Part shown: positions 3,255 through 51,862 of the stretch, piece by piece
How positions within the stretch are numbered: position 1 is the first letter of the stretch
Layout: each line of letters opens with the position of its first letter
The notes under the pieces: generated by a model
Told to the model about the DNA's origin: nothing
The model's input: only the letters and a program-made list of their open reading frames with translations
Database searches by the model: none
NCBI RefSeq assembly: GCF_000213785.1
Contig: NC_015557.1
Location: 1,282,664 to 1,346,663 of the forward strand
Length of the DNA stretch: 64,000 bases
Source: Hydrogenobaculum sp. 3684
Lineage (GTDB): Bacteria; Aquificota; Aquificia; Aquificales; Aquificaceae
Reading direction: 5' to 3'
Position numbers and translations under genes: made by a program

Positions 3255-3266
3255 GGTGAGAAAGCT

Positions 3267-9614: not shown

Positions 9615-9615
9615 A

Positions 9616-15106: not shown

Positions 15107-16523
15107 CTAAAACTGTGCATTTACTCTAAGCCCATAAACCCACAAAGGACCTCTATTCTTATCATACCCTGGATGTCTTATGTATTGAGCATCTGGAGAT
15201 ATAGATATATACTTGTTTAGTTGATACTTGTAGTAAGCTTCCATTATTTCTTCATAGCCATAGTTAAATTGTCCGTTTTGACCTGAGCCTACAAAGAATG
15301 AAGATGATGGTTCGTTGATGGTACCTGATTCCAAATATCTTTTGTGGGTGTTTGAAAGGGCGTTTATGGCAAGGCCTATACCAAGTTGATCTTTGGGCCT
15401 TTTCCAATGAACGCCGTTTATAGAAATACCGCCTGCTATGTCTCTATCTGCATCGGTGTAGGCAAAATCTTCTGTTTGTCCGTTGTTAAAACCAGCTCTT
15501 AAAAAGAGTCCTGTTTTACCATCATCTGCTATAGGTTGTTCTAAGTTTAGGAAAAATCCCCATTTGTATCTTTTGTGATCTTTTGACTCTGTGCATATAA
15601 CAGGGTAATCATATCCTGCCAAAGCTCCATTTGGTCCAAATTTTGTGTAATAACAAGGGCTATTTGGAGAATAATAATAGCTAAAATTATCCATAGCCTC
15701 AGTATAGCTTCCCATCCTACCGTAGTTTAGCATGCCAAGAAGCCTTATCACAGTTCCTATGTCGTTTGGTCTTAGAGAAAGCTGTGTGTTTAGACTGTAA
15801 GCTCCAGACTGATCGTAGGTGTTGCCGTTTGCCATGGTAGGTTCTGCCCCTAAAGCTATTTTAAAAGAATAGTGTTTCTTAACAACACCAGATTCTACAC
15901 CTACTGTGTATCCTCTTGTATCTGCTCCGTAATCCCAAGCTACGTTGTCGTTAAAATCATAGTTTAAAAACTGAGTTCTTGGAGAGTTAGCATATCGGTT
16001 GTTATCAAAATCATCTGCTAGGGAAAACTTTCCTATCTTGATATAAAAATATTCTTTTGGATAGTACCCTGGAAGCTGATCTGGAGCTCTTCCTTCATAC
16101 TCCAAAGATTGAGATAGGGCTTTTGTGTATATAATATAAGCTCTTGCTATATATGGGTTTTTGCCAAGATCAGATGACCCTGCCCTTATGTAAAGGAAGT
16201 TTGGATAACCACCTATTCCTTGACCATAACCTACGCCGTTTCCTTTAAAAAGCTGTATATCAAGATAAGCTTGGATATCTTTTGTAAGCTGTGCTCCTGT
16301 GTATAAACCATAAGACTGGGTTACCTCTTCGGATCTTCCACCACCGTTGTTTTTATATGGATTACCAAAGGTCATAGGTCCTTCGTAAGGGGAGTTGAAG
16401 TTTGTAGAGTATTGACCCACAAATGTTGCTTTCATACCTAAGAATTGAGGAAACCAAGGGGGAAGGTTTTCGCCAAAGGCTAAAGCGCAAGGAAAAAAAC
16501 ACCAAAAACAAAGTTTTTCTCAT
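15107..16523 (-). pseudogene. OprB-like outer-membrane porin, frameshifted in the signal peptide
   Basis: The body (from the ATG at 16435) encodes 442 residues of an outer-membrane beta-barrel; the C-terminal region YYKYQLNKYISISPDAQYI ... GLRVNAQF ends in Phe and is typical of the carbohydrate-selective porin OprB family. A signal peptide is encoded just upstream but in another frame: it begins at 16523 (MRKTLFLVFF) and the mature start (ALAFGENLPPWFPQFLG) is in the porin frame. Removing one T from the seven-T run in this stretch restores a single 471-residue or so ORF. There is also an eight-T run between the GGAGGT ribosome site and the ATG. It starts 43 bp after the nickel permease stop, so it may be in the NikR-controlled unit. 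It could be phase-variable, decayed or a sequence error. Confidence 0.75.
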
Positions 16524-16566
16524 AAAAAAAATTTTTACCTCCATGATACTTAACCTCGCTATATTT

Positions 16567-17589
16567 TTAATTTATATTTCTTGTATGATACATATCTTGT
16601 TTTATAGCTTTTCCATAGAAAATAAACGCTCCTAAAAATATAAATATCATAAAAAGCACAATAAATATACCAACTTTACCAAGGGGAATACTGTTAACTA
16701 AATTTGTAAAGTAAGCTTTTGGCATAAACTCTTGTGTTATAATTTGCAAAAACTCCAGCATGCCTATAAAAAGGGCTATAAAAATACTAGCACCAGTGAT
16801 AACAAGGTTAAAAGATAGTCTTCTTATAGGGTCGTTGTTGGTCCAAGCATATATGTTGTTCATGATAAAAGAATCAAAAGAATCCATTAACGTCATACCT
16901 GCTGTGAAAAGCAGTGGAAACAACAGTATGCTCCATATATTCATACTTGTCTTTGCCAAAGCCACAGATATACCAAGTATAGCAATTTCTGTAGCCGTAT
17001 CAAACCCAAGACCAAACAAAAATCCTACTATATACATTTTGTAAGGGGCATCTATTTTTTTATACAAAAAGCTAAAAAACCTTCCCATAAAACCTCTTTT
17101 GTTTAAAAGCTCTTGAAATATCTTGTTTAGTTCTTCTTGATATTCAGAAGAAGATTCTCTATACATTTTATATATATCGTATAGGGCTTTAAATATGAAT
17201 ATGTTGATAATACCTATGAGCGTTAAAAATAAAGCTGATATGAGAGTGCCTACTATGTTTCCCATGTTTTGCAAAGTGGGTATAGAGTTTTTTACGGCCT
17301 TTGTGGCAAATATAAGAGCTACCGACAACCCTATAACAACGCTTGAATGTCCAAGGGAGAAGAAAAAACCTACGCTGTTGGCATTTTTACCATCCTGAAC
17401 CAATTTTCTTGTGGTGTTGTCTATGGCTGCTATATGATCCGCATCAAATGCATGTCTTAGTCCAAAAAGATACGCCATACCTCCTATAGCCAAAAGCCCT
17501 GGTATATTGTAAAAGCTTGTTACGAATAAACTCCATACCAGAGTGTTGAACACCAAAAGCCCAAAAAGCATAAGTTTTGCACTTTTCAT
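16567..17589 (-). CDS. NiCoT-family nickel/cobalt permease (HoxN/NixA type)
   Basis: A 340-residue inner-membrane permease with about eight helices. The metal-binding signature in TM2 is RHAFDADHIAAIDNTTRK, the family diagnostic; the FSLGHSSVV and GLGFDTATEIA segments are the other conserved NiCoT blocks. A ribosome site AGGAGA lies upstream of the ATG. A perfect NikR-like inverted repeat lies at 17611-17628, 22 bp upstream of the start, with nikR next on the same strand. It supplies nickel for hydrogenases; metal preference (Ni over Co) is inferred from the NikR context. Confidence 0.93.
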   Translation of the reverse strand: MKSAKLMLFGLLVFNTLVWSLFVTSFYNIPGLLAIGGMAYLFGLRHAFDADHIAAIDNTTRKLVQDGKNANSVGFFFSLGHSSVVIGLSVALIFATKAVKNSIPTLQNMGNIVGTLISALFLTLIGIINIFIFKALYDIYKMYRESSSEYQEELNKIFQELLNKRGFMGRFFSFLYKKIDAPYKMYIVGFLFGLGFDTATEIAILGISVALAKTSMNIWSILLFPLLFTAGMTLMDSFDSFIMNNIYAWTNNDPIRRLSFNLVITGASIFIALFIGMLEFLQIITQEFMPKAYFTNLVNSIPLGKVGIFIVLFMIFIFLGAFIFYGKAIKQDMYHTRNIN

Positions 17590-17610
17590 TCTGTATCTTC
17601 TCCTGAATGA

Positions 17611-17628
17611 ATTATCATTTATGATAAT
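17611..17628. promoter_or_regulatory. candidate NikR operator upstream of the nickel permease
   Basis: The sequence ATTATCAT-TT-ATGATAAT is a perfect 8-bp inverted repeat with a 2-nt spacer. It lies in the 69-bp gap between nikR and the permease, directly upstream of the permease ribosome site. NikR operators are dyad AT-rich sites near the -10 or start point of nickel uptake genes, so repression by Ni-NikR is the likely use. The spacing is shorter than the E. coli nik operator, so binding by NikR is inference. Confidence 0.65.
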
Positions 17629-17658
17629 ATTTTTTTAAAAAAAGTAATATGATATATA

Positions 17659-18078
17659 TTATAGTTTTGAAGCTTTTACCAACTTAGCAAATTTAACGCC
17701 GTTGAGACCTGATATGATGTTTACAGTTTCTACTATCGTTTGACTAGGACCTTTTATCATTATGGTTTCTAAGCAATTGTTATGATCTATATGTATATGC
17801 GTAGTACATAGAATGTTTATATAATGGTTGTGCTGTATATCGAGCAACTTTTGTGTAAGCTCTCTTTTATGATGATCATATATTATCACCAAAACCCCTA
17901 TAAGCTCATTGTTTTCATCTTCCCATTCATCTTCTACAATGGCCTCTCTTACCAAATCTCTTATAAACTCAGATCTTGATGCGTAAGATTGCTCTACTTT
18001 TTTGTCTATAAAATCTACAAGCTCTTTTGGTATTGTTATACATATCCTTTCAACCTTTGATTTGTCCATCTTTCTCAT
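17659..18078 (-). CDS. nikR: nickel-responsive regulator NikR
   Basis: A 139-residue ribbon-helix-helix/ACT regulator. The N-terminal RHH domain reads ERICITIPKELVDFID and RSEFIRDLVREAI; the C-terminal metal domain has the ligand set H (HNHYIN region), then H-x-H and C in THIHIDHNNCLE, matching the square-planar Ni site of E. coli NikR. The ATG at 18078 is used; an in-frame ATG three codons later (18069) is the alternative. It is divergent from a TetR gene with only 14 bp between start codons, so their promoters must overlap. Confidence 0.94.
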   Translation of the reverse strand: MRKMDKSKVERICITIPKELVDFIDKKVEQSYASRSEFIRDLVREAIVEDEWEDENNELIGVLVIIYDHHKRELTQKLLDIQHNHYINILCTTHIHIDHNNCLETIMIKGPSQTIVETVNIISGLNGVKFAKLVKASKL

Positions 18079-18092
18079 TATATTATATTACT

Positions 18093-18680
18093 ATGCCAAA
18101 TAGCAAAGATGAGAAGAAAAACCAGATTATAAAAGTAGCCTGTGAGCTTTTTGCTAAAAGTGGTTATTATAACACAACAATGCCAGATATTGCAAACGCT
18201 TCGGGCATGAGTGTAGGCAACCTTTATAACTATTTTGAGTCAAAGGAAGAGCTAGCAAAAGAAACGATGCTAACTGTGTCTAAACTTGTAGGTGAAAAAC
18301 TCTCTTATATAAACTCTTTGAACGTGAGCGTTAAAGAAAAAATAAGCTTATTTGTTAGGAATTTCTTTGACATTGCAAAACATGAACCTCAGCTTATGAG
18401 TTATTTTTTAAAGGTTTTCTTGGTGAATAGAGAAGTTTTCAAAGACGGATGCGAAGGTTTTACCTGTGTGAAAGAGATTGTTACGGAAACTATGATACTG
18501 CTTTCAGATGGCGTTGAAAAAGGAGAGCTTAGAAATCAAGAATTTTTCACAGCTTTTTCTACTATGATTGGTTCGATAGGGGGCATAGTGTTTTTATACT
18601 ATGAAGGCGTTTTAGACAACGACTTAGACTACTACGAGCCCTACATATCAGAAAATATATATATGGCTTTAAAAGCATGA
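18093..18680 (+). CDS. TetR-family transcriptional regulator
   Basis: A 195-residue regulator. The N-terminal helix-turn-helix is typical (IIKVACELFAKSGYYNTTMP followed by DIANASGMSVGNLYNYFESK). The ligand domain is unassigned. There is no Shine-Dalgarno; a TATTAT box lies 6 nt upstream of the ATG, suggesting a leaderless transcript. The stop overlaps (ATGA) the start of a hydrogenase small-subunit relic, so it may once have headed a hydrogenase operon. Divergent from nikR. Confidence 0.9.
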   Translation: MPNSKDEKKNQIIKVACELFAKSGYYNTTMPDIANASGMSVGNLYNYFESKEELAKETMLTVSKLVGEKLSYINSLNVSVKEKISLFVRNFFDIAKHEPQLMSYFLKVFLVNREVFKDGCEGFTCVKEIVTETMILLSDGVEKGELRNQEFFTAFSTMIGSIGGIVFLYYEGVLDNDLDYYEPYISENIYMALKA

Positions 18681-18855
18681 AAACGCTTTTTGGATACAGG
18701 GACTTTCTTGTGTAGCAAATACCCAGTCGTTTTTGTGTATGGAACAAAAAGATTTAGAAGAAAAAGCCAAAGTTTACCCATCTACCACAAGCGAATATAT
18801 CAAAAATTTGCTAAAAGATATAGAGATACCCCAAGATATACATATTCACTTTTAA
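18677..18855 (+). pseudogene. relic of a group-2-type [NiFe] hydrogenase small subunit (5' end)
   Basis: The ATG at 18677 overlaps the TetR stop. After five codons the frame breaks: adding one base to the five-T run at 18687-18691 gives MKTLFWIQGLSC followed by VANTQSFLC and runs on in the frame of an ATG at 18739 to the stop at 18855, about 59 codons in all. The W-x-Q-G-x-x-C-x-x-N-T-x-S-F-L pattern is the N-terminal proximal-cluster motif of group 2 hydrogenase small subunits. The rest of the gene is missing and a terminator follows. Without the inserted base the translatable pieces are a 12-codon peptide and a 38-codon ORF (18739-18855). Identification rests on one motif. Confidence 0.55.
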
Positions 18856-18862
18856 TTTTTAT

Positions 18863-18884
18863 AAAAGCCCCAAAAGGGGCTTTT
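18863..18884. terminator. shared terminator hairpin
   Basis: AAAAGCCCC and GGGGCTTTT form a 9-bp stem with an AAAA loop. It lies 7 bp after the dnaK stop (minus strand) and 7 bp after the relic ORF (+ strand). The minus-strand side continues into an A/T-rich tail, and the U-rich arms allow it to work in both directions. Confidence 0.85.
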
Positions 18885-18891
18885 GGTATAG

Positions 18892-20766
18892 TTATACTGG
18901 TCTTGCGTTAAAACCGTCATCTGGTGGGTTTTGATCGTTTGGTGGTGGGGTTTGACCAGAAGAGTATAAGCTTGTAGCTATCTTGTTGGATATATTTGTT
19001 ATTTTGTTGTAAGCTTCTTCTATAACGTTCTTATCGGCGGAATTTAGTGCTTGTTTGCCTTTTGATATCTCAGCTTCGGCTTCTTGGGCAAGATCTTGAG
19101 GTATCTTGTCTTTATGTTCGTTTAAAAGCTTCTCAAGGTTGTAAATCAAAGAGTCTAGCCTATTTCTTGCTTCTATGAGTTCTTTGTTCTTTCTATCTTC
19201 TTCAGCGTGCATTTCTGCTTCTTTTACCATCTTTTCTATGTCTTCTTTGGAGAGTCCACCGGAGGCTTGTATCTTTATAGATTGTTCTTTGCCTGTAGCT
19301 TTGTCTTTAGCAGTCACATGAAGTATGCCATCAACGTCTATGTCAAAGCATACTTCTATTTGTGGTACTCCTCTTGGTGCTGGTGGTATACCAGTTAGGG
19401 TAAATCTTCCAAGAGATTTGTTGTCTTTGGCCATTGGTCTTTCACCTTGTAGCACATGGATTTCTACTTCTGTTTGATTGTCTGAAGCTGTGGTAAATAC
19501 TTCGCATTTTTTGTAAGGTATAGGCGTATTTCTTGGTATAAGGGTAGTCATCACTCCACCCAACGTTTCAAGACCCAAAGAAAGCGGTGTTACATCTACA
19601 AGCAATATGTCTTTTACTTCACCAGTTATAACACCAGCTTGTATAGCAGCACCCACTGCCACTACTTCATCTGGGTTTACACCTTTGTGAGGTTCTTTGC
19701 CAAAGAACTCTTTTATCTTTTGTTGAACTAGAGGTATACGTGTAGAACCACCCACTAATACCACTTCGTTTATATCTTTTGGAGTTAGCTTTGCATCTTC
19801 TAAGGCCCTTTTTACTATTTCCATAGTTCTATCTATGAGGTCTTTTATCATCTCTTCTAATCTCGCTCTGGTGAGTTTTTTCTGTAGGTGCATAGGTTGT
19901 TTGGTATCTGGGTCTATGGTTATAAATGGTAGGTTTATTTCCGTTTCCATCTTAAAAGAAAGCTCTTTTTTAGCTTGTTCTGAAGCTTCTTTTAGGCGTT
20001 GGAGTGCTGTTTTATCGTTTTTAAGATCGATATTGGTTTCTTTTTTAAACTCAGAGATAAGCCATTCCATTATGCGCTCATCTATGTTTGCACCTCCCAA
20101 ATGTGTATCGCCGTTTGTGGCTTTTACCTCTATAACACCGTCTCCACCTTCTAGGATAGATACGTCAAAAGTACCACCACCAAAGTCATATACTAAGATT
20201 TTAACATCAGACTGTTTGTCAAGCCCATAGGCCAGAGCTGCCGCTGTTGGTTCATTTAATATTCTTTGGACCTCTAAACCTGCTATAGCTCCTGCGTCTT
20301 TTGTAGCTTGACGTTGACGCTCGTTAAAATATGCTGGTACTGTTATAACGGCTTTTGTTATCTTTTCACCAAGATAAGCTTCGGCTGCTTCTTTTAGTTT
20401 TTTAAGCACTTGAGCTCCTATTTCTTCGGGTCTTACCTTTCTTCCAATGTTTGGTATCTCAAAAGCTGCATCTTGTTTGTCATCTGGAACCACTTTGTAA
20501 GATACCCTTTTTGCTTCGTCTAAAACCTCTTCGTATTTTCTACCTATAAACCTTTTGGATTCGTATATAGTGTTTTCTGGGTCTAGTACTGCTCTTCTTT
20601 TGGCTGGATCACCCACCAAAACTTCCTTTTCTTTTGTATATGAAACTATCGAAGGAGTCAACCTAGCCCCTTCTTGGTTTGCTATAACCACTGGTTCACC
20701 ACCTATCATTACAGCTACAACAGAGTTTGTAGTTCCAAGGTCTATACCCAATACTTTTTCTGCCAT
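18892..20766 (-). CDS. dnaK: molecular chaperone DnaK (Hsp70)
   Basis: A 624-residue Hsp70. The ATPase domain has the N-terminal GIDLGTTNS phosphate loop, the second phosphate motif [12 protein letters not shown] and [10 protein letters not shown]; the substrate domain and lid follow, ending in a Pro/Asn-rich tail. Length is normal. A strong promoter (TTGACA-17-TATTAT) and an AGGAGG-like site precede the ATG. No grpE or dnaJ neighbours are present in the window, so dnaK stands alone here. Confidence 0.98.
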
Positions 20767-21927: not shown

Positions 21928-23575
21928 ATGTTAACATTTCAATGTTTGCTTGAATTTGAAAATGAAAAAGATAAAGAGATTGTATTAGATTTGATGCGTA
22001 GATTTTCATCTGCAATGAGATATGCATACAAAAGGTTGTTAGAAGGTGAAAAAAAGAAAAGATTTAAAAAAACATTTATCAAGATTATTTAACATAAACA
22101 CAAGATACTCAGATGATGCTATATTTTTAGCACAATCGATGATTACATCATGCAAAGAGAGAGAACAAAACCCAAAAAAGCTCATATTTGGCTCAAGAAA
22201 AGCATTTGAGCAATTAAAGAAAAACCATTTAACAGGTAAAAGAAGAAAACAGCTAAAGACAAAATGGAAAGAAAGCAGACAAGGGAATTTATATTCAAGA
22301 GGAGATAAAACAAAACAAGGTAATTTGAATTTAAGATTTGAGTGGATAAATGATAAACTTTATTTAAGAATAAACACAGGAGATAGACAGTATATCTATG
22401 CAAAGGTAATTAGAAGTGTTAAAAGAGAAAAAGATAAATGGATAGAGTTTATGTTTATATTAGAAAAGGCATATCAGACAAGTGATTGGTTTCCATATAG
22501 CGTTAGATTAAAAGTAAAAAACGGTAATGTATATGCTTTCATATCTGTGGAAGAAAAATTACCACCTGTTACAATTAAAAAAGATAATGGAATAATAGGC
22601 ATAGATATAAACGCTTATCCATTTCATTTAGCATTAGTAACAGTGTCAAAAGATGGAAATCTGGAAAACTATCAAGCGATAAGCTTGCATGAGTTATTGG
22701 ATGTTAGCTCAGAAAAAAGACAATATTTAGAATGGCAAATAGCACATCAAATAATAGAAATTGCTAAGAAGGAAAACAAAGCTATTGCAATAGAAAACTT
22801 AGATAAACTACCAAAAGGTAAAAGAGGAGATGGGTTTGCTAAACTAAGACAGAAATTGCAAAAGTGGATATACAAGAGATTATTAAATAAAATAGAGATT
22901 ACAGCAAGAAGAAATGGAATAGAAATTAGAAAAGTAAATCCAGCATATACATCTTTAATAGGCAAATTAAAATATGCACCGCAGTTTAACATAGACAAAG
23001 ATATTGCAGCAGCATTTGTAATAGCAAGAAGAGGATTAGGATATAAGGAAAAACTACCTAAAAACTACAAAGGATTATTAAATGATAAAGATTTTCTTTT
23101 GTTTAGTGAAGCCAGTATTGATGGCAGAATTGCAAAACTTAAGAAAGAGATAAAAGAAGAAAGAAATCAGTACAAAAGAAACAAATTAAAAAGTAAGCTA
23201 AGTAAATTAAGAAAAGAACTTAAAGCACTACAAAAACATTTGTCGCTTATTATAGAAAGTGAAAAGAGTAAGTCAGTTTCTCAACAACCTGTAAACCGAC
23301 GGAAGGAACGGGTGAGAGGTTCCGCTTATGCGGGACACAAAAACTGGCAAGTTCTTTTCACAGTCCTTGCTTTCTGCTGTCTTGAAAAATCTTACAGAGA
23401 TTTTTCTCCTTTAAAACGTGTTATAATTTCAAAGGATTGGATAGCAGTGGCTAATAGGTTAGTTCCTGTACTTGGTATAGGGACTATGACACTTCCAAAA
23501 TACCGCCTGTTGGGGTCGGAAGTGTCTGAAATGGCGGAATACAAATACCCCAACTCAAGCTGTACAGAGCAATAG
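21928..23575 (+). pseudogene. TnpB-like RuvC nuclease gene with one frameshift
   Basis: The N-terminus (MLTFQCLLEF ... YAYKRLLEGE) starts at 21928 in one frame and stops at 22092; the remaining 509 codons are in the next frame, open from 22046. Deleting one A of the seven-A run at 22049-22055 joins them. The RuvC motifs are D187 (GIDINAYPF), E250 (IAIENLD) and D319 (NIDKDIAAAFVIARRG), numbered from 22046. The CxxC...CxxC zinc ribbon normally between motifs II and III is absent; NPAYTSLIGKLKY passes almost directly to motif III. A basic 190-residue C-terminal extension follows. In this lineage it corresponds to the 'TnpB-related accessory protein' class. TnpB proteins are RNA-guided nucleases; activity here is doubtful because of the frameshift. 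Confidence 0.8.
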
Positions 23576-40704: not shown

Positions 40705-41574
40705 AAAAGCTTTTGAAACTCTTTTATTACATCTTTATAATCTATATTAAGGCATGCCACATCGCCTCTTTTGCAGGTTTTAGATCCGCAGTATTGACAT
40801 TCAAGATTAAGGCTTACATAATGCTGTAAAGGGCTTACTTTCCATATGGGGTATGCTCCCAAAAGCACCAAAGAAGGCACATTCAAAAACGTAGCAAGAT
40901 GATAGCTAAATGTCTCACAAGAAACAAGAGCTTTTGCATCTTTTAAAATGCTTGCGTAAGTATGTATATCTGTAGATATGTATGTGGCAAAATTCAGATT
41001 TTGGATAAGCAAACACCACATCGTAGCCTTTAGCATGTATAAACTTCGCCACTTCGTTAAATATATCTATACTTGGGACTTTTGTGGGCACAGGTGCTGT
41101 AGGAGATATTACTACATAGGTTTTACCCTTTAGAGGGTTTTCTTTGAAAATCCAAAAATAAGGCTCTACATCAACCTCTTTACCAAAAACAGGGCTTAGT
41201 ATCTGAAGGGTATTTTTTATCTCATTATCTTTTGGACTAAAAGGAGTGAGCTTGTTGTATATAAAAGATAAAAACTTTTCTTTGTCTTTTTTATACAAAG
41301 CTATTTTGTATTTGGCTTTTAAGAGAAAACTATAAATATAAGAAATACCTTTAAAGGAAGTATCTACTAAAAAATCGTAAGAGCCTTCAAAAGAACCAAG
41401 TTTATCATTCATAAAATCTATATAAGGGTTTTTTTCAAAAAGCTCTAAACCTTGTTTTGTGGTAAAAACCTCTACTATTGCATCTTTTTGGTGGATTTTT
41501 ATAGCTTTAAATAGCAAAGCGTTGTAAAGAAGATCCCCATAACCCCTATGAAGGGATAAAACCAAAATCTTCAT
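40701..41574 (-). pseudogene. GT9-family glycosyltransferase (heptosyltransferase-like), frameshifted
   Basis: The N-terminal part (41574 to 40915, 219 codons) has MKILVLSLHRGYGDLLYN, the GT9 opening, and VVISPTAPVPTK. It runs out of frame after DVVFAYPKSEF. The rest is in another frame from about 41036 to 40701 and has the donor-binding DAKALVSCETFSYHLATFLN and SLVLLGAYP. Deleting one base at the four-A (minus-strand four-T) run at 40989-40992 joins them into about 290 codons with E-F-A-T at the junction. It overlaps the ROK and SemiSWEET genes by 4 nt each, so the locus was recently intact. A sequencing error is not excluded. Confidence 0.82.
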
Positions 41575-42434
41575 ATATGCTTCATGGCAAAAGCGTGGGC
41601 TCCCAAAATCCCAGCATCGTTTCCAAGCTCTGAAAGTGTGATATCTATATGCTCAACGCTTGGGTCTATAGATAGTGAAATAGCTTTATTTTTTATCTCT
41701 TCAAACAAAAAGTTAAATCCCATCATAACACCACCCCCTAAAACTATCTTACATGGATTTAACATATTTATCAAACTAGCAAGCCCATAAGACATGTACA
41801 AAACAAACCTATCAAAAACCTTTTTTGCAACTTCTGAGTCTTTTTCACTAACCAAATCTTTTAAGCTTTTATTATAACCTAATTTTTTTAAATATCTCTC
41901 CAAAGACAAACCCCCGGCGTAAGCTTCAAAACAGCCCCTTTTACCGCAGGTGCATTTTAGCCCATTTGGTTTTAGTTTTATATGCCCTATCTCACCTAAG
42001 TTTGAATCACAGCCAAACCTAAGCTCTTTATCTATGATAAGCCCACCACCTATACCTGTACCCACAAAAACACAAGCCCCGTTTTCTACATCTTTTAACC
42101 CGCCGTATATGTATTCTCCGTAAGTGATAGCTCTAACGTCGTTTATTAAGATAGTCCTTTTTTTTAATCTATTTTGCACAAGCTCTACAAAATTTATATT
42201 TTTCCAGCCTAAGTTTGGTGCATGTTTTAAAATACCTTTTTTCATATCCACTTGACCAGCTATTGCTATAGAAAGTGTATCTATATCCTTATAATGAGAT
42301 ATTATTTTTTCTAAAAGCCCCAAAAACCCTTCAAAATCTTTTGGTGTCCCAAAATCAAGCCTATTTTTTATACTACCATTTTCCACTATCCCAGATTTTA
42401 TATGAGTAGCCCCTACGTCTAAAGAGAGTATCAT
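41571..42434 (-). CDS. ROK-family sugar kinase (glucokinase-like)
   Basis: A 287-residue sugar kinase. The phosphate loop is LSLDVGATHIKSGI, the central FVGTGIGGGLI and LGEIGHIKL are ROK landmarks, and the zinc site is CTCGKRGCFEAYAGG. ATP-dependent phosphorylation of glucose or an N-acetylhexosamine is likely. First gene of the kinase/GT9/SemiSWEET operon. Confidence 0.93.
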   Translation of the reverse strand: MILSLDVGATHIKSGIVENGSIKNRLDFGTPKDFEGFLGLLEKIISHYKDIDTLSIAIAGQVDMKKGILKHAPNLGWKNINFVELVQNRLKKRTILINDVRAITYGEYIYGGLKDVENGACVFVGTGIGGGLIIDKELRFGCDSNLGEIGHIKLKPNGLKCTCGKRGCFEAYAGGLSLERYLKKLGYNKSLKDLVSEKDSEVAKKVFDRFVLYMSYGLASLINMLNPCKIVLGGGVMMGFNFLFEEIKNKAISLSIDPSVEHIDITLSELGNDAGILGAHAFAMKHI

Positions 42435-42528
42435 GTTATAATCCCTACAGATATTATACCAAATACATAAAAAACTCTTAAAGCTAAAAAGTATAACCTC
42501 TGCCCCTTGTTTGTATTAAAATAAACCT

Positions 42529-43500
42529 ATGGATATACAACCACACGATTCATTTTTTAAGCAAATATTTTCTAATCCTAAGAGAGTAAAATTGCTTCTT
42601 GATATCTTTGGTAAAGATGTATCTAAAAGTATACATTCTATAACACCTGTTAATACAGAAAAGTTTTCTTCAAAATCTCAAAAGTTTATGCTTGATCTAC
42701 TTTTTAGCTGCAAGGTAAAAGATCAAGATGCTTATATAAGGATTGTACTTGAACATAAATCTTATCTTGATAAAGAATTACCTATTCAGCTTCTATACTA
42801 CAACAGTGCTATTTGGGAAGAGGCTATAAAAGAGAAAGATTATTACCCTCCTATTATCAACATTGTTTTTTATCATGGAAAAGGTGAATGGAACATACCT
42901 ACATCTTTACCGGTATTAGAAGACCAAAACTTAGAAAAATACGTATCTAAGCTAAACTATATACTTATAGATCTAAATAAAATATCTGATGATGAGCTAA
43001 TAAAAGAAGCCTACATAGATTTTTGCTTTACATCTGCTGTTATTGCAATGAAGCATGTACATGAGAATATAGAAAAGATTAAAGCAGTATTTAGGCCATT
43101 GGTGGAATACGTTCAAATTCATGAAGATGAAGAAGGATATCATTGTTTATTTTTCTCATTTAACTATATTTCATATGTGAAAGGTGATACCAAAGAGGCA
43201 GAAAACGCCTTGAAAGAACTTATAGGAGGTGATAAGAAAGCTATGACACTGATAGAAAAGTGGATTATGGAAGGATTGGAAAAAGGTAAGCAAGAAGGAT
43301 TGCAAGAAGGATTGCAAGAAGGATTAGAAAAAGGATTAATTAAGGCTAAAAAAGATGACATCAAGAGTGTTATTCTTGTCAAGTTTGGAGTATTGCCAAA
43401 AGAGGTTGAAGAGAAGATAGAAAGTACGGATGATATACAGATTTTAGATGATATGTTAAAAAGGGTTATACTGGCTGGCAAGATTGAAGAGATTTTGTAA
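42529..43500 (+). CDS. Rpn-family recombination-promoting nuclease (PD-(D/E)XK)
   Basis: A 323-residue protein with the Rpn/Transposase_31 opening PHDSFFKQIFSNPKRVKLLL and core MLDLLFSCK...IVLEHKSYLDKELPIQLLYY, where D...EHK is the PD-(D/E)XK catalytic pattern; FYHGKGEWN is also typical. The tail has EGLQEGLQEGL repeats encoded by a 12-nt tandem repeat, common in these proteins. E. coli Rpn proteins are DNA endonucleases that raise recombination. There is no ribosome site and a TAAAAT box ends 6 nt before the ATG. It flanks the methyltransferase/helicase pair and ends 31 bp from it, convergently. Confidence 0.9.
   Translation: MDIQPHDSFFKQIFSNPKRVKLLLDIFGKDVSKSIHSITPVNTEKFSSKSQKFMLDLLFSCKVKDQDAYIRIVLEHKSYLDKELPIQLLYYNSAIWEEAIKEKDYYPPIINIVFYHGKGEWNIPTSLPVLEDQNLEKYVSKLNYILIDLNKISDDELIKEAYIDFCFTSAVIAMKHVHENIEKIKAVFRPLVEYVQIHEDEEGYHCLFFSFNYISYVKGDTKEAENALKELIGGDKKAMTLIEKWIMEGLEKGKQEGLQEGLQEGLEKGLIKAKKDDIKSVILVKFGVLPKEVEEKIESTDDIQILDDMLKRVILAGKIEEIL
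43290..43325 (+). repeat. three 12-bp tandem repeats inside the Rpn gene
   Basis: GCAAGAAGGATT is repeated three times without a break and encodes the QEGLQEGLQEGL part of the coiled tail. Because the unit is a multiple of three, slippage would only change tail length. Confidence 0.85.
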
Positions 43501-43531
43501 GAGATCAACTTCCCTCTACAAGTATGCCACG

Positions 43532-46500
43532 CTAAATTATTTTTATCTCCTCTTCCGTTAATCCGTAAAGCTTGTAAACTATCTTATCTATCTCATGCTC
43601 AAGCCTTTTCACATGTTCTTGTTTTTCTTGATTTGTTTCATAATCTTCAGATTGGGTAAGCGTGAGGATTTGTTCTACTTTTTGGATTATTTGGTCTGCT
43701 ATGGGTTGGTTTTCTTTTGTGATTGGGGGAAGGGGTAGCTGTTCTAAAAACGCTTTCTTATATCTGTATCCATCTTCTCCTAATCCGCCACCTGCATAGA
43801 AAGTTTTAAAGAAAAATGCCACTGGTTTTGAGTTTAAAAGTCCAATTATGTATTTTAAATTTTTTCCTGTCATTAAGAAAGCTGTAGCCTCAACATACAT
43901 ACCTGAATTGTCATATGCAAAACTTGGCTCTCTTACTATTTCTTGCCACACTATCTTTTCTTTTTCAAATTCTTGATAGTATGCTATGTTATCTTGTGTC
44001 TCAAACCATTTATTTGATGTCTTTTTGCGATGACCTGGCTTTCCGTCTTGTAATAACCTATCTCCAAAGCTTGCTAAATAATCTTTTAAAGCTGGATAAT
44101 CGTTAATATTCAGATGTTTTGCTGGAAAAGTCCCAATTATCCACAAGCCCGCCCACTTATACCTGTATTTCTCAATATCTCTACCTCTTAAAACTGGTTT
44201 TATAATTTCCTCTGTTCTTTTTCTCTCTTCTTCAGTTTTACAATTTCTTAAAATCTCATTTCTTTTCTCACTATCAATAATAAAAGCTTCATTAAATCCT
44301 GTTTTTATTCCATAATAAATCTTTACATCCCAATCTTTTAAAGGTTTTCCTACTTTTTCAATCTTATCTTTTAAACTCAAAACACTTTCATCTCCAAGCG
44401 TCCAAGCGTTATCAGAAAGCTTATTTTGATACATCGTTTGCCATGTTCTAAGCTCTTGCCATGTATCTACCTGAGACCAACTATTTAAACGCTCAACTCC
44501 TTTCTCAGTAGCTTGCTCAATCAACTTGGATTTGTCTTTTCTTAAATACTCTTCAATATCTTCAATATCACTTTTAACCTCTAAAAATCTAAAAATATGC
44601 TCTTTCCTTGGTTTCTGCTTTCTAAAGATCAAAATATTGGTATCCACTGTTTGCTCAAAAACGCTATAACCACTAAAATCTATAATCTCTAAAATAGCTG
44701 TTTTTTCTTTTAAAAACTTTCTTAACTTCTCTCCGTACTTTGCCCTCATCCATTTGTTGCTTGTTATATATGCCAAAATCCCTTGATCTTTTAAAAGCTG
44801 ATAGCCTTTTTCGTAAAAATACACATAAAGGTCTGCCGTTGATGTGAAAACTTCGTAGTTTTGTCTTTCAAGGATCGGTTTAATGGCTTTTATTTTTTCA
44901 TGTCTTACATATGGCGGGTTTCCAATCACGATATCAAAACCATCAACCACTCCAAACATCCACTCTGGATCAAACCAATCTGCGGAGGCGTTTGGATCGA
45001 AGATATCAAAATGAGCTATTTTATCGGCTGTTTCAGCAGGCCATCTATTTTTGATTAGAAGCTCTTTTATTTGCTCTCTTATCTTTTTGTCTTCTTCTTG
45101 TAGTTGTATTTTCTCTTTTCTTGATCTAATTCTAAAATATCTATGCCTTAATGATTTTAAGTGTTTTTCCAATTTAACTATCTCTGGGTTTCTAATGCGT
45201 CTTTGAGGTGTATTTTCCAATCCTATCAAAGCATTTGCAGAGATAAACTTTGTTTCAAGGTTTGGCAAAGTTAAAATACCAAAGTTTGGTTTAGTTTTAT
45301 CTGCTTTTTGATCCAATATCAAAGAAATAAAAAATCTCAATTTACTGATCTGAATAGCTATGGGTTGTATGTCTACCCCATATATGCAGTTTTCTATCAA
45401 ATACAGCTTTCTTGCATAGTCTGGGTAGTTTATGCTTTCGTTAAAATGCTCTTTTACCTCATTTAAAAGCTCTTTCAGAGCGTTTTCATCTTTTGCCATT
45501 TCTAATACTTCTTTACTTTCTTTGTTGATCCTATCTACTTGTATTTCATACCAGACTTTATTGGCCGGATCAAGCTTTTGAAGAAGATAAACAAGTTTAT
45601 GCAATATTCCCATAGGAAAAGCCCCAGATCCACAGGCTGGGTCTATTATCTTTATCTGGTCTATTGCATAGATTAGCTCTTTTTTTAGATTTTCTGGTAA
45701 ATCTATATTTTCATTAGAGTAAGAAAATAAGTTATCAAGTATTTCTTCAGCTTGTGGTACTTTTGTCTTTAAATACTCTCTTAAACTCTCTTCTACCATG
45801 TAATCTACTATCTCTCTTGGTGTGTAGTAGCTACCCGTTGCTTTTCTTGCGGTGGTATTAGTCTCTGGATTGTAGCTTGCTAGTAGATTTTCAAATACCT
45901 TGCCAAGAAGCTCAGGGTCAAGGGCTATTTCTTGGTCTATCGGTGTTGCCTCATCTGTGGTAAAGTTGTAGGACTTAAGAATATCTATGAGCCCTCTAAC
46001 TTTTGCGTTTGCACTCAATTCATATTTAGATAAATCAACTGTTTTCTCTTTACTGCTAAAAAACAATTCATCATCGATTTTAGCCTGCTTTTTCTCATTT
46101 CTTGTAAATCCGTCTATATAAATACTGTCTTTATCAAGGCAGTCAAAAAGCCCGCCGTTTATAAAAGGAATGCTTGAAAAAAGCTTTTTCGCCTCTTCTT
46201 CATTTATCAAAAATTTATCTTCATATCTATATTTGATTTTTACTCCAAAGTCTTTTCTGTTTGCTGGGTAACCTTCGTTTTTTGCCCAAGCTCTTTGGTC
46301 TATTGGTGTGTTTAGTGTTGCAAAAAATAGATTTTGTAAAATTGCATTGTAATAGTTGTTGCTCTTACCAAAATCTTTTACGATGTTTTTTAGCTTTTGT
46401 TCATCAAACAAATCATTTGGTACCAATCCTTTTTCTTTTAAAAACCATATAAAAATCAATCTTGTAAGAAGCCTAATTAAACTTTGAGCATTTCTAATCT

Positions 46501-47083
46501 CTTTATCTTTTTCTGAATATTCAGAAAACTTGACTTTATCCATCGCATAGAAATACCAATTTTGAAGCTCGTTGTAAAATTCTTTGGTTACTGGTTCCAC
46601 ACTAAAGGCGTTTTTTATAGATTCTAAATTTTTAAAATTGCAGTCTTTAAGCTGATTTATGAAGGTTTTGTTTGGAAGTTTCGGATCTATATAAAACGTA
46701 AACCTTTTGTAATAACTGTATTGGGCTTTTATGCCATAGGTATTTTTAAATACAAATGAAAGTCTAAACGATCTATCAGAGTAAAATAAAAACAACCCGT
46801 AATATTTGTTTTCTTTGTTCAAAAGCTCTTTTGCAATATCAAACTGTTTTTTCTTGCTGGTTCTTTCAGTAAGATTTTTGACCTTCACAGCAAAAACTAC
46901 CAAATCAGCTTCCCGGTCTTCTAACTTTATATGTCCTAAATATGTTATTTCCTCTATCAACTCTTCATGGTTTTCATAATCGTATACTTGTCTTGGAGAA
47001 ACGGTAAAATTGTTATCATAAAGATAATTTTGAAAATCTTCCAAAGAAAACGCTTTTGTGAGGTTTTCTAATATCTCTACCAT
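43532..47083 (-). CDS. Eco57I-like adenine-specific DNA methyltransferase (restriction-modification)
   Basis: An 1183-residue protein. The catalytic domain has SAM motif I DPACGSGAFPMG (481-492) and the N6-adenine motif NPPY (722-725, VIGNPPYVRHEKI). The C-terminal third (after about 900) resembles a target-recognition region (LPLPPI near residue 1130). The first 480 residues contain a region with READLVVFAVKVK, which could be a degraded PD-(D/E)XK nuclease, but no clear ExK triad was seen. It starts 2 nt after the helicase stop, so the two genes form one operon. With no separate specificity subunit, it probably combines recognition and methylation. It is not a BREX PglX by context, since no PglZ or BrxC is present. 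Confidence 0.9.
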   Translation of the reverse strand: MVEILENLTKAFSLEDFQNYLYDNNFTVSPRQVYDYENHEELIEEITYLGHIKLEDREADLVVFAVKVKNLTERTSKKKQFDIAKELLNKENKYYGLFLFYSDRSFRLSFVFKNTYGIKAQYSYYKRFTFYIDPKLPNKTFINQLKDCNFKNLESIKNAFSVEPVTKEFYNELQNWYFYAMDKVKFSEYSEKDKEIRNAQSLIRLLTRLIFIWFLKEKGLVPNDLFDEQKLKNIVKDFGKSNNYYNAILQNLFFATLNTPIDQRAWAKNEGYPANRKDFGVKIKYRYEDKFLINEEEAKKLFSSIPFINGGLFDCLDKDSIYIDGFTRNEKKQAKIDDELFFSSKEKTVDLSKYELSANAKVRGLIDILKSYNFTTDEATPIDQEIALDPELLGKVFENLLASYNPETNTTARKATGSYYTPREIVDYMVEESLREYLKTKVPQAEEILDNLFSYSNENIDLPENLKKELIYAIDQIKIIDPACGSGAFPMGILHKLVYLLQKLDPANKVWYEIQVDRINKESKEVLEMAKDENALKELLNEVKEHFNESINYPDYARKLYLIENCIYGVDIQPIAIQISKLRFFISLILDQKADKTKPNFGILTLPNLETKFISANALIGLENTPQRRIRNPEIVKLEKHLKSLRHRYFRIRSRKEKIQLQEEDKKIREQIKELLIKNRWPAETADKIAHFDIFDPNASADWFDPEWMFGVVDGFDIVIGNPPYVRHEKIKAIKPILERQNYEVFTSTADLYVYFYEKGYQLLKDQGILAYITSNKWMRAKYGEKLRKFLKEKTAILEIIDFSGYSVFEQTVDTNILIFRKQKPRKEHIFRFLEVKSDIEDIEEYLRKDKSKLIEQATEKGVERLNSWSQVDTWQELRTWQTMYQNKLSDNAWTLGDESVLSLKDKIEKVGKPLKDWDVKIYYGIKTGFNEAFIIDSEKRNEILRNCKTEEERKRTEEIIKPVLRGRDIEKYRYKWAGLWIIGTFPAKHLNINDYPALKDYLASFGDRLLQDGKPGHRKKTSNKWFETQDNIAYYQEFEKEKIVWQEIVREPSFAYDNSGMYVEATAFLMTGKNLKYIIGLLNSKPVAFFFKTFYAGGGLGEDGYRYKKAFLEQLPLPPITKENQPIADQIIQKVEQILTLTQSEDYETNQEKQEHVKRLEHEIDKIVYKLYGLTEEEIKII

Positions 47084-47085
47084 TT

Positions 47086-50000
47086 TTAAGCACTCTCTTG
47101 ATTTTCTACACTTATTATAACATCTTCGTTGGATAGATTTAAAAATTTTAGCTGATCTTCTATTTTTCTTAAAAAATCTTCTCCTATTTCGTTTTTTATC
47201 TCCTCTAATTTAGAACATACATTTTTGATATCTTTTAGATCTTTTTCTATTTCCACAATTTTTCTTAATATATAATCCGAAAGACTTCCATAATATTCTA
47301 TATCTTTTTTAAGATCGATAATAAAAGCTCTAAAAGGTTTTAGATATTCATCTTGTGTATTCAACAAACTTTGTAAAAGGTTTAGAGCTTTTGATTCCAA
47401 AGAGCTTGAGTTTGATCTTCTTCTTATATAAGCATCTTTGTCTAGCACTATTTCATAATTCTTCCAAAATTTATCTGACAATCTTAAAGATTTTTCACCC
47501 TTGTTTGCTTTTATTTTCTCGTAAGCTTCTTCAAAGCTTATGGATTTTGGCTGTCTTTCTTGATAATCTTTGTAGCCCACAAACATATCTTTTCCTTTTC
47601 TAATGAAAACAAAAAGTTCATCTTTTTGCCCTTTTTTGGCGGTTTTAACCCTTTTTGGCATATCTTCAATTTGATTTAGTATATCTGGATAAGAATTTTT
47701 TATATTTTCAAACTCATCCCTTAGCTTTGTAAAAAAGCTTTCTTCTTCACCCTCTTGATAGGTGTTTAACCTTTTGTATAGCTTTGACTCGGTGGGTTCT
47801 TCAGACTCATCAAAGATTTTGGCATCTTCTCCAAGGATATTGTGAATCATAAACATTTTGTTTTGGGCTATCTCCCTTGATCTTACTATATCAGATCCTT
47901 TTTCAGTGGGAAAGAAATTGACTATGTAGATCTCATCGTAAACCTTTTTACCTATTCTATTTATACGTCCCACCCTTTGTATAACCCTAACAGGATTCCA
48001 AGGTATATCGTAATTTATCACCACACCAGCTCTGTTGAGGTTATAACCTTCAGATAGTTTATCAGTGGCAAGAAGTATGCTGTACTTATCTTCTTGTTCT
48101 TTGTTTTGGGCGTCAAAATTTTTGGCTATCTCCTCAAATTTGGTTTTCCCTATGTTGCCATAAGCACTAAGCAATATATTTCCAAATTTAGCTTTTAATA
48201 TACTGTCTAAGTGTTTTGCCGTATCTATGTATTCGGTAAATATAACCACTTTTCTATTTTCTTTTATAAAAGCCTCGATACCAGATATAAGCCTATCTGC
48301 TTTAGGATCATTCTCTGTAAGGTTTAGCTCTTTTATCTTTCTTATAAAATCATCAAAAAGATCAATATCACTTTGTATATCTTCTATAAATTTATCTTTT
48401 AGTTTAAACGTAGATAAATCATAAACTTTGTAATAGTTGCTGTTTAGTTTTTCGTTTTTTAAACGATCTTCATAATCTGCGAGCTCTTTTAAAATCTCAT
48501 CTGGATCTGCTGTAACGATATCTTCCATGAGTTTTCTATCAAGTATAAACTTACCTGATTTCTCAATAAACTTTAAAGCTGTTTCATTTATACGTTTAAA
48601 GCTTTTAATACTCTCATAAAAAGATCCAAAACTACTTTCAAATCTTTTCACAAGAAGCCTTCTCATGAAATCGTATAAATTTTTCTGATAAACAAATATA
48701 AACCTATCATCTTCAGAAAGTTTGCTATCTTCATTTGTTATACCTTTCTCGTATTTAATAGGCATATATATAGCACCCTTGAAATATCCGCCCTTACTAT
48801 CATCGTCAAAAGCTCTTATCACCTCATCGTAAAATTTTGATTGCTTTGGTGTTAATTCATAAAACCACTCTATTGGATCTCTTACAATAGGAAGATCTAT
48901 CTTTTCCTTATAATGCTTTAAATCAAGTCTATTTCTTCTTATTAAAACAGGTTCTACGATGGCTTTTATACGCCTTGCCAACATCTTAGACTTATCCCTT
49001 ACTTTTTCAATATTTACAGTATCTTCTCCAAAGATCTCTTTGTAATATTTTTTGGCTTTTTTTCGTCTTTCAGCGTTTGATGAGTTGTAGTGTTTCTTGA
49101 TATAAGAGAGCTCATTAAACAGATCCTCATATTCATCAAATTTTGCCTTTAGATTTTCATCAAGGAGTATCGTAGATTTTTTTGGTATCGTAAAAAGCTT
49201 AAGAAGTGAAAATATATCAGATGGTTTGTTGTTAAAAGGTGTAGCGGTAAGAAGCATAACAGTTCTACCTCTACATATCTCTTTTAGCTGATTATAACTA
49301 GCGGTGTCTTCGTTTCTAAACCTATGGGCTTCGTCTATAACAACAATATCTATATTGTCTGAGTTTTTTACAAACTGAAGCGCCTCATCGAGCTTTCCAA
49401 TAGACCACACTTCCCATCCGTAAAGCTCAAAATCTTCCAAATATTTTTTCCATCCTATCGTTTTAGCATCATCCCCTATCAAATGAGGAGGCGATAAAAC
49501 AATACCCCTTTTACCCATTGCCTTACCTACCATACAAGCAACGATTGACTTTCCAAGTCCCACCACATCGGCAAGGATAACCCCTCCATGCGCTTCACAG
49601 CTGGCTATTGCTTGAGATACAGCCTCAATTTGATAAGAGTAAGGCCTATATCCCTTTTTTTCCATAAGGCTTATAAGCTCTTTACCTATATCTTTAGCTT
49701 GGTAAGTGTCAAGATAGTTTTTAATAAGATAAACATATGCCACAAAAGGATCTATATATCTTAAAAATGTATTTCTTCTCATGGCGTTTACAACGTCTTC
49801 AGCCGATAACTCTATAGCCATTTCCCAATTAGCGTCAAAGTACTCTTCTGCATCTTTAAAACCATAATCTTTTATCTCGACGTTAAACTCGTTTTGGCTT
49901 TCGATACCAGCAAGCGTTAAGTTGCTACTTCCTGTTATAAAAAGCTCAGGAGCCCCAGTTTCAGTGGTTTTAAACAAATAAAGCTTTGCATGGTTTGGAT

Positions 50001-50412
50001 CTTTAGTTTTTCTTATTACAAGCTTTCTTTTTTCTAAAAGCTCCACAAAAAACTCAGCTTGTTCATAAATCTCTTTCTTATCGAGTTTTTCATTTGTAAA
50101 TGCAATTTTTATAGATTCTATAAAATCTCTTATGGTTTCTTCTTTGTTTTCTATGCTTTTAGAAGCCTCATATAAACCAAAATTTCCCTTATCTACGTTT
50201 AGACCTACAAGTATCTTAATATGTTCATCTTGAAGCTTTCCATTTTCATACAGCTCTTTTAAAGTCTCATAAAGCTCTTTTATACCAGAAAAATAGAAAA
50301 ATCCCACAAGAAACTTTAGCTCTTTGCTTATACCAACAAGCTCTTTTAGCCTACTTTGTAAACTTTTATTACCGCTATTTGTTATAAAATTTTGAGGAGA
50401 GTGCTTTAGCAT
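47086..50412 (-). CDS. PLD-nuclease/SNF2-helicase fusion (defence)
   Basis: An 1108-residue protein. The N-terminal 200 residues are a phospholipase D-type nuclease domain with H141 and K143 in HAKLYLF and GSSN at 161-164, with an ExE-type acid after (QNEFNVE). A SNF2/DEAD-like helicase follows: motif I ADVVGLGKSIVA (281-292), DEAH (360-363), III LLTATPFNN and VI QRVGRINRIGK. A long coiled C-terminus follows. The helicase and methyltransferase are adjacent in one operon, with the PLD domain as candidate DNA cutter. The IS605-like right-end repeat lies 12 bp upstream of the ATG. Confidence 0.92.
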   Translation of the reverse strand: MLKHSPQNFITNSGNKSLQSRLKELVGISKELKFLVGFFYFSGIKELYETLKELYENGKLQDEHIKILVGLNVDKGNFGLYEASKSIENKEETIRDFIESIKIAFTNEKLDKKEIYEQAEFFVELLEKRKLVIRKTKDPNHAKLYLFKTTETGAPELFITGSSNLTLAGIESQNEFNVEIKDYGFKDAEEYFDANWEMAIELSAEDVVNAMRRNTFLRYIDPFVAYVYLIKNYLDTYQAKDIGKELISLMEKKGYRPYSYQIEAVSQAIASCEAHGGVILADVVGLGKSIVACMVGKAMGKRGIVLSPPHLIGDDAKTIGWKKYLEDFELYGWEVWSIGKLDEALQFVKNSDNIDIVVIDEAHRFRNEDTASYNQLKEICRGRTVMLLTATPFNNKPSDIFSLLKLFTIPKKSTILLDENLKAKFDEYEDLFNELSYIKKHYNSSNAERRKKAKKYYKEIFGEDTVNIEKVRDKSKMLARRIKAIVEPVLIRRNRLDLKHYKEKIDLPIVRDPIEWFYELTPKQSKFYDEVIRAFDDDSKGGYFKGAIYMPIKYEKGITNEDSKLSEDDRFIFVYQKNLYDFMRRLLVKRFESSFGSFYESIKSFKRINETALKFIEKSGKFILDRKLMEDIVTADPDEILKELADYEDRLKNEKLNSNYYKVYDLSTFKLKDKFIEDIQSDIDLFDDFIRKIKELNLTENDPKADRLISGIEAFIKENRKVVIFTEYIDTAKHLDSILKAKFGNILLSAYGNIGKTKFEEIAKNFDAQNKEQEDKYSILLATDKLSEGYNLNRAGVVINYDIPWNPVRVIQRVGRINRIGKKVYDEIYIVNFFPTEKGSDIVRSREIAQNKMFMIHNILGEDAKIFDESEEPTESKLYKRLNTYQEGEEESFFTKLRDEFENIKNSYPDILNQIEDMPKRVKTAKKGQKDELFVFIRKGKDMFVGYKDYQERQPKSISFEEAYEKIKANKGEKSLRLSDKFWKNYEIVLDKDAYIRRRSNSSSLESKALNLLQSLLNTQDEYLKPFRAFIIDLKKDIEYYGSLSDYILRKIVEIEKDLKDIKNVCSKLEEIKNEIGEDFLRKIEDQLKFLNLSNEDVIISVENQESA

Positions 50413-50424
50413 TTTTATGTTCTC

Positions 50425-50476
50425 TTGAGTGGCATTGTTTGTTCCTCAGAGTTGAAATGCGATGGTATCGCTCTAT
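50425..50476 (-). repeat. orphan copy of the TnpB-element right end, copy 2
   Basis: Ungapped match to 23602-23653 on the same + strand sequence (41 of 52 bases), including the hairpin GCGAT-GGT-ATCGC at 50459-50471 and the GAAAT/TCTA flanks. No tnpB remains nearby. It fills most of the 82-bp gap between the hydrogenase stop and the helicase start, where the promoter or leader of the methyltransferase/helicase operon should lie. Confidence 0.75.
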
Positions 50477-50494
50477 CCATTAAATTATTATATC

Positions 50495-51457
50495 TTAAAA
50501 GCTAAATATATCAAAATTCTGAGGTGTTATAGGTGCTTCTTCTTTGTACATGGTTTTGTCCCAAAAGCCTTCTTGGGAGCAGCCGATGCAACCATGGCCT
50601 GATCTTATGGGGAAAGATAGGCCGTTGTACCAGCCAATGGAACTGCAGGCGTTGTAGGTGCTTGGACCTTTGCATCCAAGTTTATAAAGGCAATAACCGG
50701 CTTTTGCACCTTCATCGTCAAAGCGTTCGGCAAACTTGTTGGCGTTGTAAAAGTTCTTCCTATAGCAAGTGTCGTGGATTGTCATACCATAAAACATCTT
50801 TGGTCTTAACTTGCTATCAAGAGGAGGTAGTTCGTCTTTTAAAAGCATATAAACGATCACACCTGCCATTATCTCTGGTATAGGAGGGCATCCGGGTACT
50901 TTTACGATGGGTTTATTTTTGATGATGGTATCTACAGAAGATGATTTTGTAGGATTTGGATAAGCCGCTTGTACACAGCCAAAAGATGCACATGAACCCC
51001 AAGCTATAATAGCTTTTGCACCTTCGGCAGCTTCCAAAAGCTCTTCGTTGAAGGGTCTTCCTCCCACCATGCAGCAAGCCCCATTTTCAAACTCCGTAAT
51101 GCTTCCTTCTATGGCAAGTATGTAGTTTCCTTTGTATTGTTCTATTATTTTCTTTTTATAGTTTAATAGATTTTCACCACAAGAAGCAGATATCAAATCA
51201 TCGTATTCTAAAGATATCAACGATACTATATCGCTAAACACCGGTGATGAGCTTCTCATCAAAGACTCAGAACAGCATGAGCATTCAAGTCCATGAAACC
51301 ACAAAACCGGTATCCTCGGCTTTTGTTTTAGAGCTTCTAATATATTGTTTATTTCATTTGGATTTATACCAAGAAGCCCACATATTTTTGTAGAAAAACT
51401 TACGAATTCTCTATACCTAACCCCTCTTCCCGTAAGAAAATCATAATAAGTTTCCAT
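50495..51457 (-). CDS. [NiFe] hydrogenase small subunit, six-Cys proximal cluster, no partner nearby
   Basis: A 320-residue group 1-like small subunit. The proximal-cluster ligands are C59, C61 and C62 (ECSCCSE), C156 and C161 (GSCASFGC) and C190 (PGCPPIPE): the two extra cysteines (61 and 161) are those that make the O2-tolerant [4Fe-3S] cluster in membrane-bound hydrogenases. The medial and distal cluster regions (HDTCYR; YCLYKLGCKGP; YNACSS...GHGCIGCS) are intact. The N-terminus resembles a Tat signal but reads VRYREFVSF instead of twin Arg, and there is no C-terminal membrane anchor, so it may stay in the cytoplasm. No large-subunit gene is adjacent; the methyltransferase/helicase island follows. 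Confidence 0.92.
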   Translation of the reverse strand: METYYDFLTGRGVRYREFVSFSTKICGLLGINPNEINNILEALKQKPRIPVLWFHGLECSCCSESLMRSSSPVFSDIVSLISLEYDDLISASCGENLLNYKKKIIEQYKGNYILAIEGSITEFENGACCMVGGRPFNEELLEAAEGAKAIIAWGSCASFGCVQAAYPNPTKSSSVDTIIKNKPIVKVPGCPPIPEIMAGVIVYMLLKDELPPLDSKLRPKMFYGMTIHDTCYRKNFYNANKFAERFDDEGAKAGYCLYKLGCKGPSTYNACSSIGWYNGLSFPIRSGHGCIGCSQEGFWDKTMYKEEAPITPQNFDIFSF

Positions 51458-51494: not shown

Positions 51495-51767
51495 TTAAAA
51501 GCTGTTTAAACCGCTGTTTTGAGTGTTTTGTACGCTTTGGGTTATCATGTTGTTCATGAAATTGTAAAGGGCTGATTCAAAAGAGTTTATACCTGTGGTA
51601 GCTTGCTGGTTTTCTTGTTTGGATTTTTCAGCAGGTGATACCGGTTCTCCCATAAAAAGTCCAAAAGGTAGAACGCCATCTACCATACCCGCTTGCTGGG
51701 CTTTTGGCTGAGGTTGTACGTTGTTTTGCAAAGCGCTTAAGTTAAAAATAGCGTTTGATATATTCAT
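51495..51767 (-). CDS. small Gln/Asn-rich protein, unknown function
   Basis: A 90-residue protein (MNISNAIFNLSALQN start) with a strong AAGGAGG site 7 nt upstream of the ATG at 51767. It is rich in Gln, Asn and Ala with no cysteine and no signal peptide. An upstream in-frame extension to 51827 lacks a ribosome site and is not preferred. It precedes the hydrogenase small subunit by 37 bp on the same strand. Confidence 0.6.
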   Translation of the reverse strand: MNISNAIFNLSALQNNVQPQPKAQQAGMVDGVLPFGLFMGEPVSPAEKSKQENQQATTGINSFESALYNFMNNMITQSVQNTQNSGLNSF

Positions 51768-51862
51768 ATTAAAACCTCCTTTTAATAAGATAAGTATTTG
51801 GCTTTTAAGAGCCATGATATTTCTCATTGTATAAATTAAATTGAGATTTCATATTAAAATCT

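Follow-up and report, generated by a model that had tools for sequence, protein, structure and literature searches.

[NiFe] hydrogenases are treated as pairs of small and large subunits that are encoded side by side. In the regulatory, H2-sensing hydrogenases the small subunit (HoxB or HupU) is cytoplasmic and has neither a Tat signal nor a membrane anchor; HoxB is encoded with its own large subunit, HoxC, and to our knowledge it lacks the six-cysteine proximal-cluster site of the O2-tolerant enzymes. The small subunit described here, from Hydrogenobaculum sp. 3684, shares its fold, the six-cysteine proximal site, the distal His/Cys3 site and the medial Cys3 site with the O2-tolerant membrane-bound (MBH) small subunits of the HupS/HyaA/HoxK (Hyd-1) type, but it has no twin arginine, hydrophobic h-region, membrane anchor or adjacent large subunit, and it has a conserved tail of its own. 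We refer to it as the orphan. It resembles HoxB and HupU in having no Tat signal and no anchor and, unlike HoxB, it has no large subunit of its own: none was found in the genome, and no kinase gene was found at the orphan locus. Our search of the open-access literature, beyond which most subscription papers lie, found no description of a solitary O2-tolerant-type small subunit.

The orphan small subunit and its retained core

The gene lies in a window (the whole stretch of 64,000 nucleotides that was analysed) belonging to a complete chromosome of 1,552,775 bp. Its open reading frame runs on the minus strand from 51457 to 50495 and encodes 320 amino acids, while the plus-strand reading of 50495-51457 has stops throughout. 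The protein falls within the [NiFe]-hydrogenase small subunit family, scoring 403 bits against TIGR00391 (hydA; E 1.1e-120; curated cut-off 179.5), and its PF01058 and PF14720 domains both exceed their cut-offs. Among solved structures, its sequence comes nearest to the small subunits of Salmonella Hyd-1-type/Hyd-5 (4c3o), the Hydrogenovibrio MBH, Ralstonia HoxK and E. coli Hyd-1; fold matches of a medium-confidence AlphaFold model (mean pLDDT 67) include 4ttt_S and 3uqy_S, the same chains as the sequence matches. These comparisons confirm the predicted product as a group-1, O2-tolerant-type [NiFe]-hydrogenase small subunit, 59% identical to HupS of the same genome. The reading frame is not a chance one: it recurs with the same features in five species (71-95% identity), and its dN/dS is mostly about 0.05-0.1. 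A promoter and terminator scan gave a signal at about chance level. Upstream lies a small Gln/Asn/Ala-rich protein (51495-51827) that is 76-94% identical in four congeners and has no Pfam match.

The N-terminal domain (50888..51283, minus strand) was aligned across five orphans and 85 paired small subunits. The initial annotation had recognised six proximal-cluster cysteines, and these (C59, C61, C62, C156, C161 and C190) do correspond to residues C17/C19/C20/C115/C120/C149 in Hyd-1-type small subunits; the set is complete in all five orphans and in 85/85 paired small subunits, and a [4Fe-3S] cluster of the kind found in O2-tolerant small subunits is predicted. E117 corresponds to E76 of Hyd-1. 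The C-terminal domain (50579..50776, minus strand) supplies the ligands of the distal (H228, C231, C256, C262) and medial (C271, C290, C293) clusters. All 13 Fe-S ligands and E117 (14 positions) are identical in the five orphans and the 85 paired small subunits. The standard-type small subunits of the family (class B), which pair with a different large subunit, have a homologous fold and clusters but lack C61 and C161: ten of them have glycine at both positions. These two cysteines (Hyd-1 C19 and C120) are important to a proximal cluster that faces an O2-exposed [NiFe] site.

We found that 100 of the 142 reference positions, each at least 97% conserved among the 85 paired small subunits, are kept by all of the orphans and that the other 42 are changed in one orphan or more. 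On average the orphans retain 0.80 of these positions in the proximal-cluster domain and 0.85 in the medial/distal domain, but 0.68 of those in the leader and 0.24 of those in the tail. It is mainly the Tat leader and the anchor/tail that have suffered losses; class-B small subunits retain 0.63 of the proximal-domain positions. Substitutions in the proximal domain include F66L, A93C, N119S and P121T, and residues flanking the distal-cluster His and Cys, on the electron exit side, are also replaced (R226T, R234K). Among the residues fixed specifically in the orphans is an extra cysteine, Cys128. The predicted interface with a large subunit is probably intact, but the altered near-invariant residues, some of them in the proximal domain, mean that it may not be.

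The former Tat leader (residues 1-46; 51320..51457, minus strand) is degraded, as the initial annotation had proposed. The twin arginine of membrane-bound Hyd-1/MBH-type small subunits is replaced by RY, KY or TY across the five species, and by hydropathy the leader has no hydrophobic h-region where the paired small subunit has one; charged residues (K24, E35 and K44) are fixed there instead. A C-terminal anchor is likewise absent, the best 18-residue hydropathy being about -0.1 to -0.4 compared with +1.7 to +2.0 in HupS. In its place is an orphan-specific tail (residues 302-320; 50498..50554, minus strand) with the motif MYKEExPI..QNFDIFxF, which is 74% identical between the most distant orphans (G000 and G002) and only 11-16% identical to HupS. 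The orphan is apparently a non-exported, cytoplasmic protein, judging from its leader and tail.

Distribution, selection and history

The orphan is present in all five species of the hot-spring genus Hydrogenobaculum that were compared (100, 95, 88, 85 and 71% identity), as is HupS, and no copy of its type was found in the 59 other genomes of the family that were searched. Among the best 80 GTDB loci, every small subunit outside Hydrogenobaculum adjoins a large subunit. No large-subunit gene flanks the orphan in the window, in agreement with the initial annotation, nor does one lie directly beside it in any of the five congeners, so the adjacent cognate large subunit of a Hyd-1/MBH operon is missing throughout. 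In G002, the most divergent species, a large subunit is found at cluster distance: there the orphan is the last gene of the hupL-cytb-hupD-hyp-nicT cluster and follows a nickel-transporter gene at a distance of 71 bp. In the other four species the gene is outside the hydrogenase cluster.

Pairwise dN/dS values (NG86) for the orphan range from 0.054 to 0.18, mostly about 0.05-0.1, with 0.18 belonging to the closest pair; those of HupS are 0.010-0.15 and those of HupL 0.034-0.08. The orphan values are about 1.2-4 times those of HupS, and about 10 times in one pair. The orphan is under purifying selection throughout the genus, but it is less constrained than HupS.

In the tree, the orphans form one clade (100/100 support) that lies outside all Aquificales class-A small subunits, including HupS of the genus (89/79). 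Since this clade contains all five species, the orphan predates their split. Its stem is long (0.98) and its outside placement may be due to long-branch attraction, with duplication within the genus as the alternative. No relative of the orphan was found in viral contigs. A plasmid origin was rejected: plasmid matches were less than 60% identical, and the annotated ones among those listed were plain 'hydrogenase small subunit'. These sequence comparisons identify the orphan as a paralogue of exported HupS that selection has maintained throughout the genus.

We also rejected the idea that the orphan is a remnant of the second, cytoplasmic-type hydrogenase of the Aquificaceae, because it is only about 31% identical to the small subunit of that enzyme, with which it shares a homologous fold and clusters, and two congeners, G003 and G004, carry both. 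A large subunit adjoins class-B and second-hydrogenase small subunits wherever neighbours were examined. The window contains the scar of a clean deletion at 18677-18856, where about 5 kb is missing relative to the same place in G003 (window 16502-18755 aligns with 1703-3955 of G003 locus L145 and 18743-19742 with 8995-10001; 13 bp are shared at the junction). The missing 5 kb holds, in G003, a complete second SSU-LSU (small and large subunit) [NiFe] hydrogenase together with nrdD and nrdG, and the first codons of its small subunit are left in the window, fused to the end of nrdG; the pair is also present in G004. The scar suggests that strain 3684 probably lost one hydrogenase while the orphan was kept. 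In G001 the orphan is likewise kept, and neither a defence island nor a second hydrogenase was found in that genome. The window also encodes, at 22046-23575, an IS200/IS605-type TnpB-related protein of 509 amino acids with weak similarity to Cas12f2.

HupL as a possible partner, and the alternatives

The complete genome contains exactly one full-length large subunit, HupL (C1:47371-49089), which has the motifs RICGVCTTIH and DPCLACSTH and whose gene is far from the orphan. It is directly adjoined by that of HupS (C1:49345-50268), a 365-amino-acid small subunit with SRREF, a hydrophobic leader and a C-terminal anchor, and the cluster continues with genes for cytochrome b, HupD and Hyp proteins, named from gene order and sequence and not from a family search. 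A conserved protein of 127-129 amino acids without an NCBIfam match is encoded between hypF- and hypB-like genes at L058:7534-7917 and L059:2890-3279. Three other PF00374 proteins (479, 411 and 592 amino acids) were considered as partners of the orphan and rejected, as they have no Ni-binding CxxC pairs and are Nuo/complex-I-like. An earlier suggestion that the large subunit lies elsewhere is therefore borne out in part: the genome has one, but this forms a direct pair with a different small subunit. Such a pairing had been named in advance as refuting the suggestion; it does so for a simple split operon and not for a shared large subunit.

Our preferred reading, which we hold tentatively, is that the orphan may be an alternative, non-exported small subunit for HupL. 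With still a little more reserve, we suggest that two compartments could share one catalytic subunit through competing small subunits, one exported and membrane-anchored, the other cytosolic and O2-tolerant. It is established that untagged large subunits can be exported only as hitchhikers on a small subunit that bears a Tat signal (PMC10924467). HupL, having no export signal of its own, would normally be carried out by HupS alone; a fraction of the matured HupL would instead bind the orphan, and this complex, a soluble O2-tolerant hydrogenase, would remain cytoplasmic. From the distal cluster of the orphan, electrons would pass to a soluble acceptor, docked by the new tail, and not to cytochrome b. 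The complex might supply reducing power inside the cell, for example for CO2 fixation, or report the H2 or redox state.

A full electron relay without a Tat signal or an anchor is what would be expected of a cytosolic partner of HupL, and the retention of the two extra [4Fe-3S]-defining cysteines suggests a proximal cluster that still faces a [NiFe] site. Sharing is also favoured by the presence of a single full-length large subunit, paired with a small subunit that bears both Tat signal and anchor, by the occurrence of the orphan under purifying selection in all five species, by its high retention of near-invariant residues in both domains, and by the position of the gene at the end of the G002 cluster. 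Against it stand the location of the gene outside the hydrogenase cluster in four of five species, its elevated dN/dS relative to HupS, the altered near-invariant residues, some of them in the proximal domain, and the medium confidence of the AlphaFold model.

The main rival, already raised in the initial annotation and which we consider rather unlikely, is that the orphan works without any large subunit, as a free three-cluster Fe-S protein serving as a cytosolic electron carrier or an O2/redox sensor, with the fixed Cys128 and the new tail as its working parts. Both of these orphan-specific features would suit such a protein, as would its faster evolution than HupS and the lack of an adjoining large subunit in every species, G002 offering one at cluster distance only. 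However, a protein without a [NiFe] partner would not readily be expected to retain the whole [4Fe-3S] ligand set, C61 and C161 included, together with about 80% of the near-invariant proximal-domain residues, and the neighbourhood of the orphan has no fixed regulator or kinase gene.

Less probable again is an assembly or storage factor, a chaperone or decoy that would retain HupL after its maturation, or Fe-S clusters, inside the cytoplasm and pass them to HupS without catalysis. The orphan does co-occur with HupS and HupL throughout the genus, and in G002 it ends a hyp/nicT maturation cluster, but its distal and medial ligands are invariant, which a chaperone need not keep. Decay of a duplicate without function is very unlikely: rapid evolution relative to HupS and the loss of leader and anchor would fit it, but the reading frame is intact in 5/5 species, dN/dS is mostly 0.05-0.1 and every ligand is invariant.

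The defence/restriction-modification block beside the orphan (42435..50494) is separate from the hydrogenase system. It comprises genes for an Rpn-type nuclease (42529-43500, plus strand), an Eco57I/TypeIIG-like methylase (43532-47083, minus) and a PLD-SNF2 helicase (47086-50412, minus); the last two match defence models, in line with the initial description of a defence island, and the gap of 82 bp between the orphan and the helicase start at 50412 is exact. The block is absent from G001 and G004, where the orphan runs straight into the ROK-family gene (41571..42434, minus, in the window), the two being a few bp apart or slightly overlapping according to which start codon is taken, with no large subunit between them. 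G003 has a block of the same type at the same junction, and its proteins are only 50% and 31% identical. These differences indicate that the island came later and that the site has hosted more than one such block. Blocks with the same gene layout, at window 42435-50494 and L055:1976-9487, each lie between short repeats that are nearly identical (TTTAGCTTTTAAGA / TTTAGCTTTAAGA), which look as if a defence cassette had been exchanged. There is no sign of a displaced large subunit at the junction. The proposal that the island had recently broken an H2-uptake operon, replacing or separating the large subunit, had in its favour the position of the block where that gene would usually lie, but it is refuted by the synteny of G001 and G004 and by an orphan clade older than the split of the five species, and we give it almost no credence. 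Because the orphan is a paralogue kept by selection across the genus, the defence island has no bearing on what it does.

Implications for hydrogen metabolism

If the orphan does act as a cytosolic partner of HupL, it would exemplify natural subunit swapping by which a single enzyme is sent to a second compartment, and in which the choice of small subunit sets the membrane side of H2 oxidation and the electron acceptor. The complex would be a naturally occurring hydrogenase module, soluble and O2-tolerant, and so of biotechnological interest. Such an arrangement could also affect the prediction of H2 metabolism from genomes where this relies on counts of small subunits or Tat signals.
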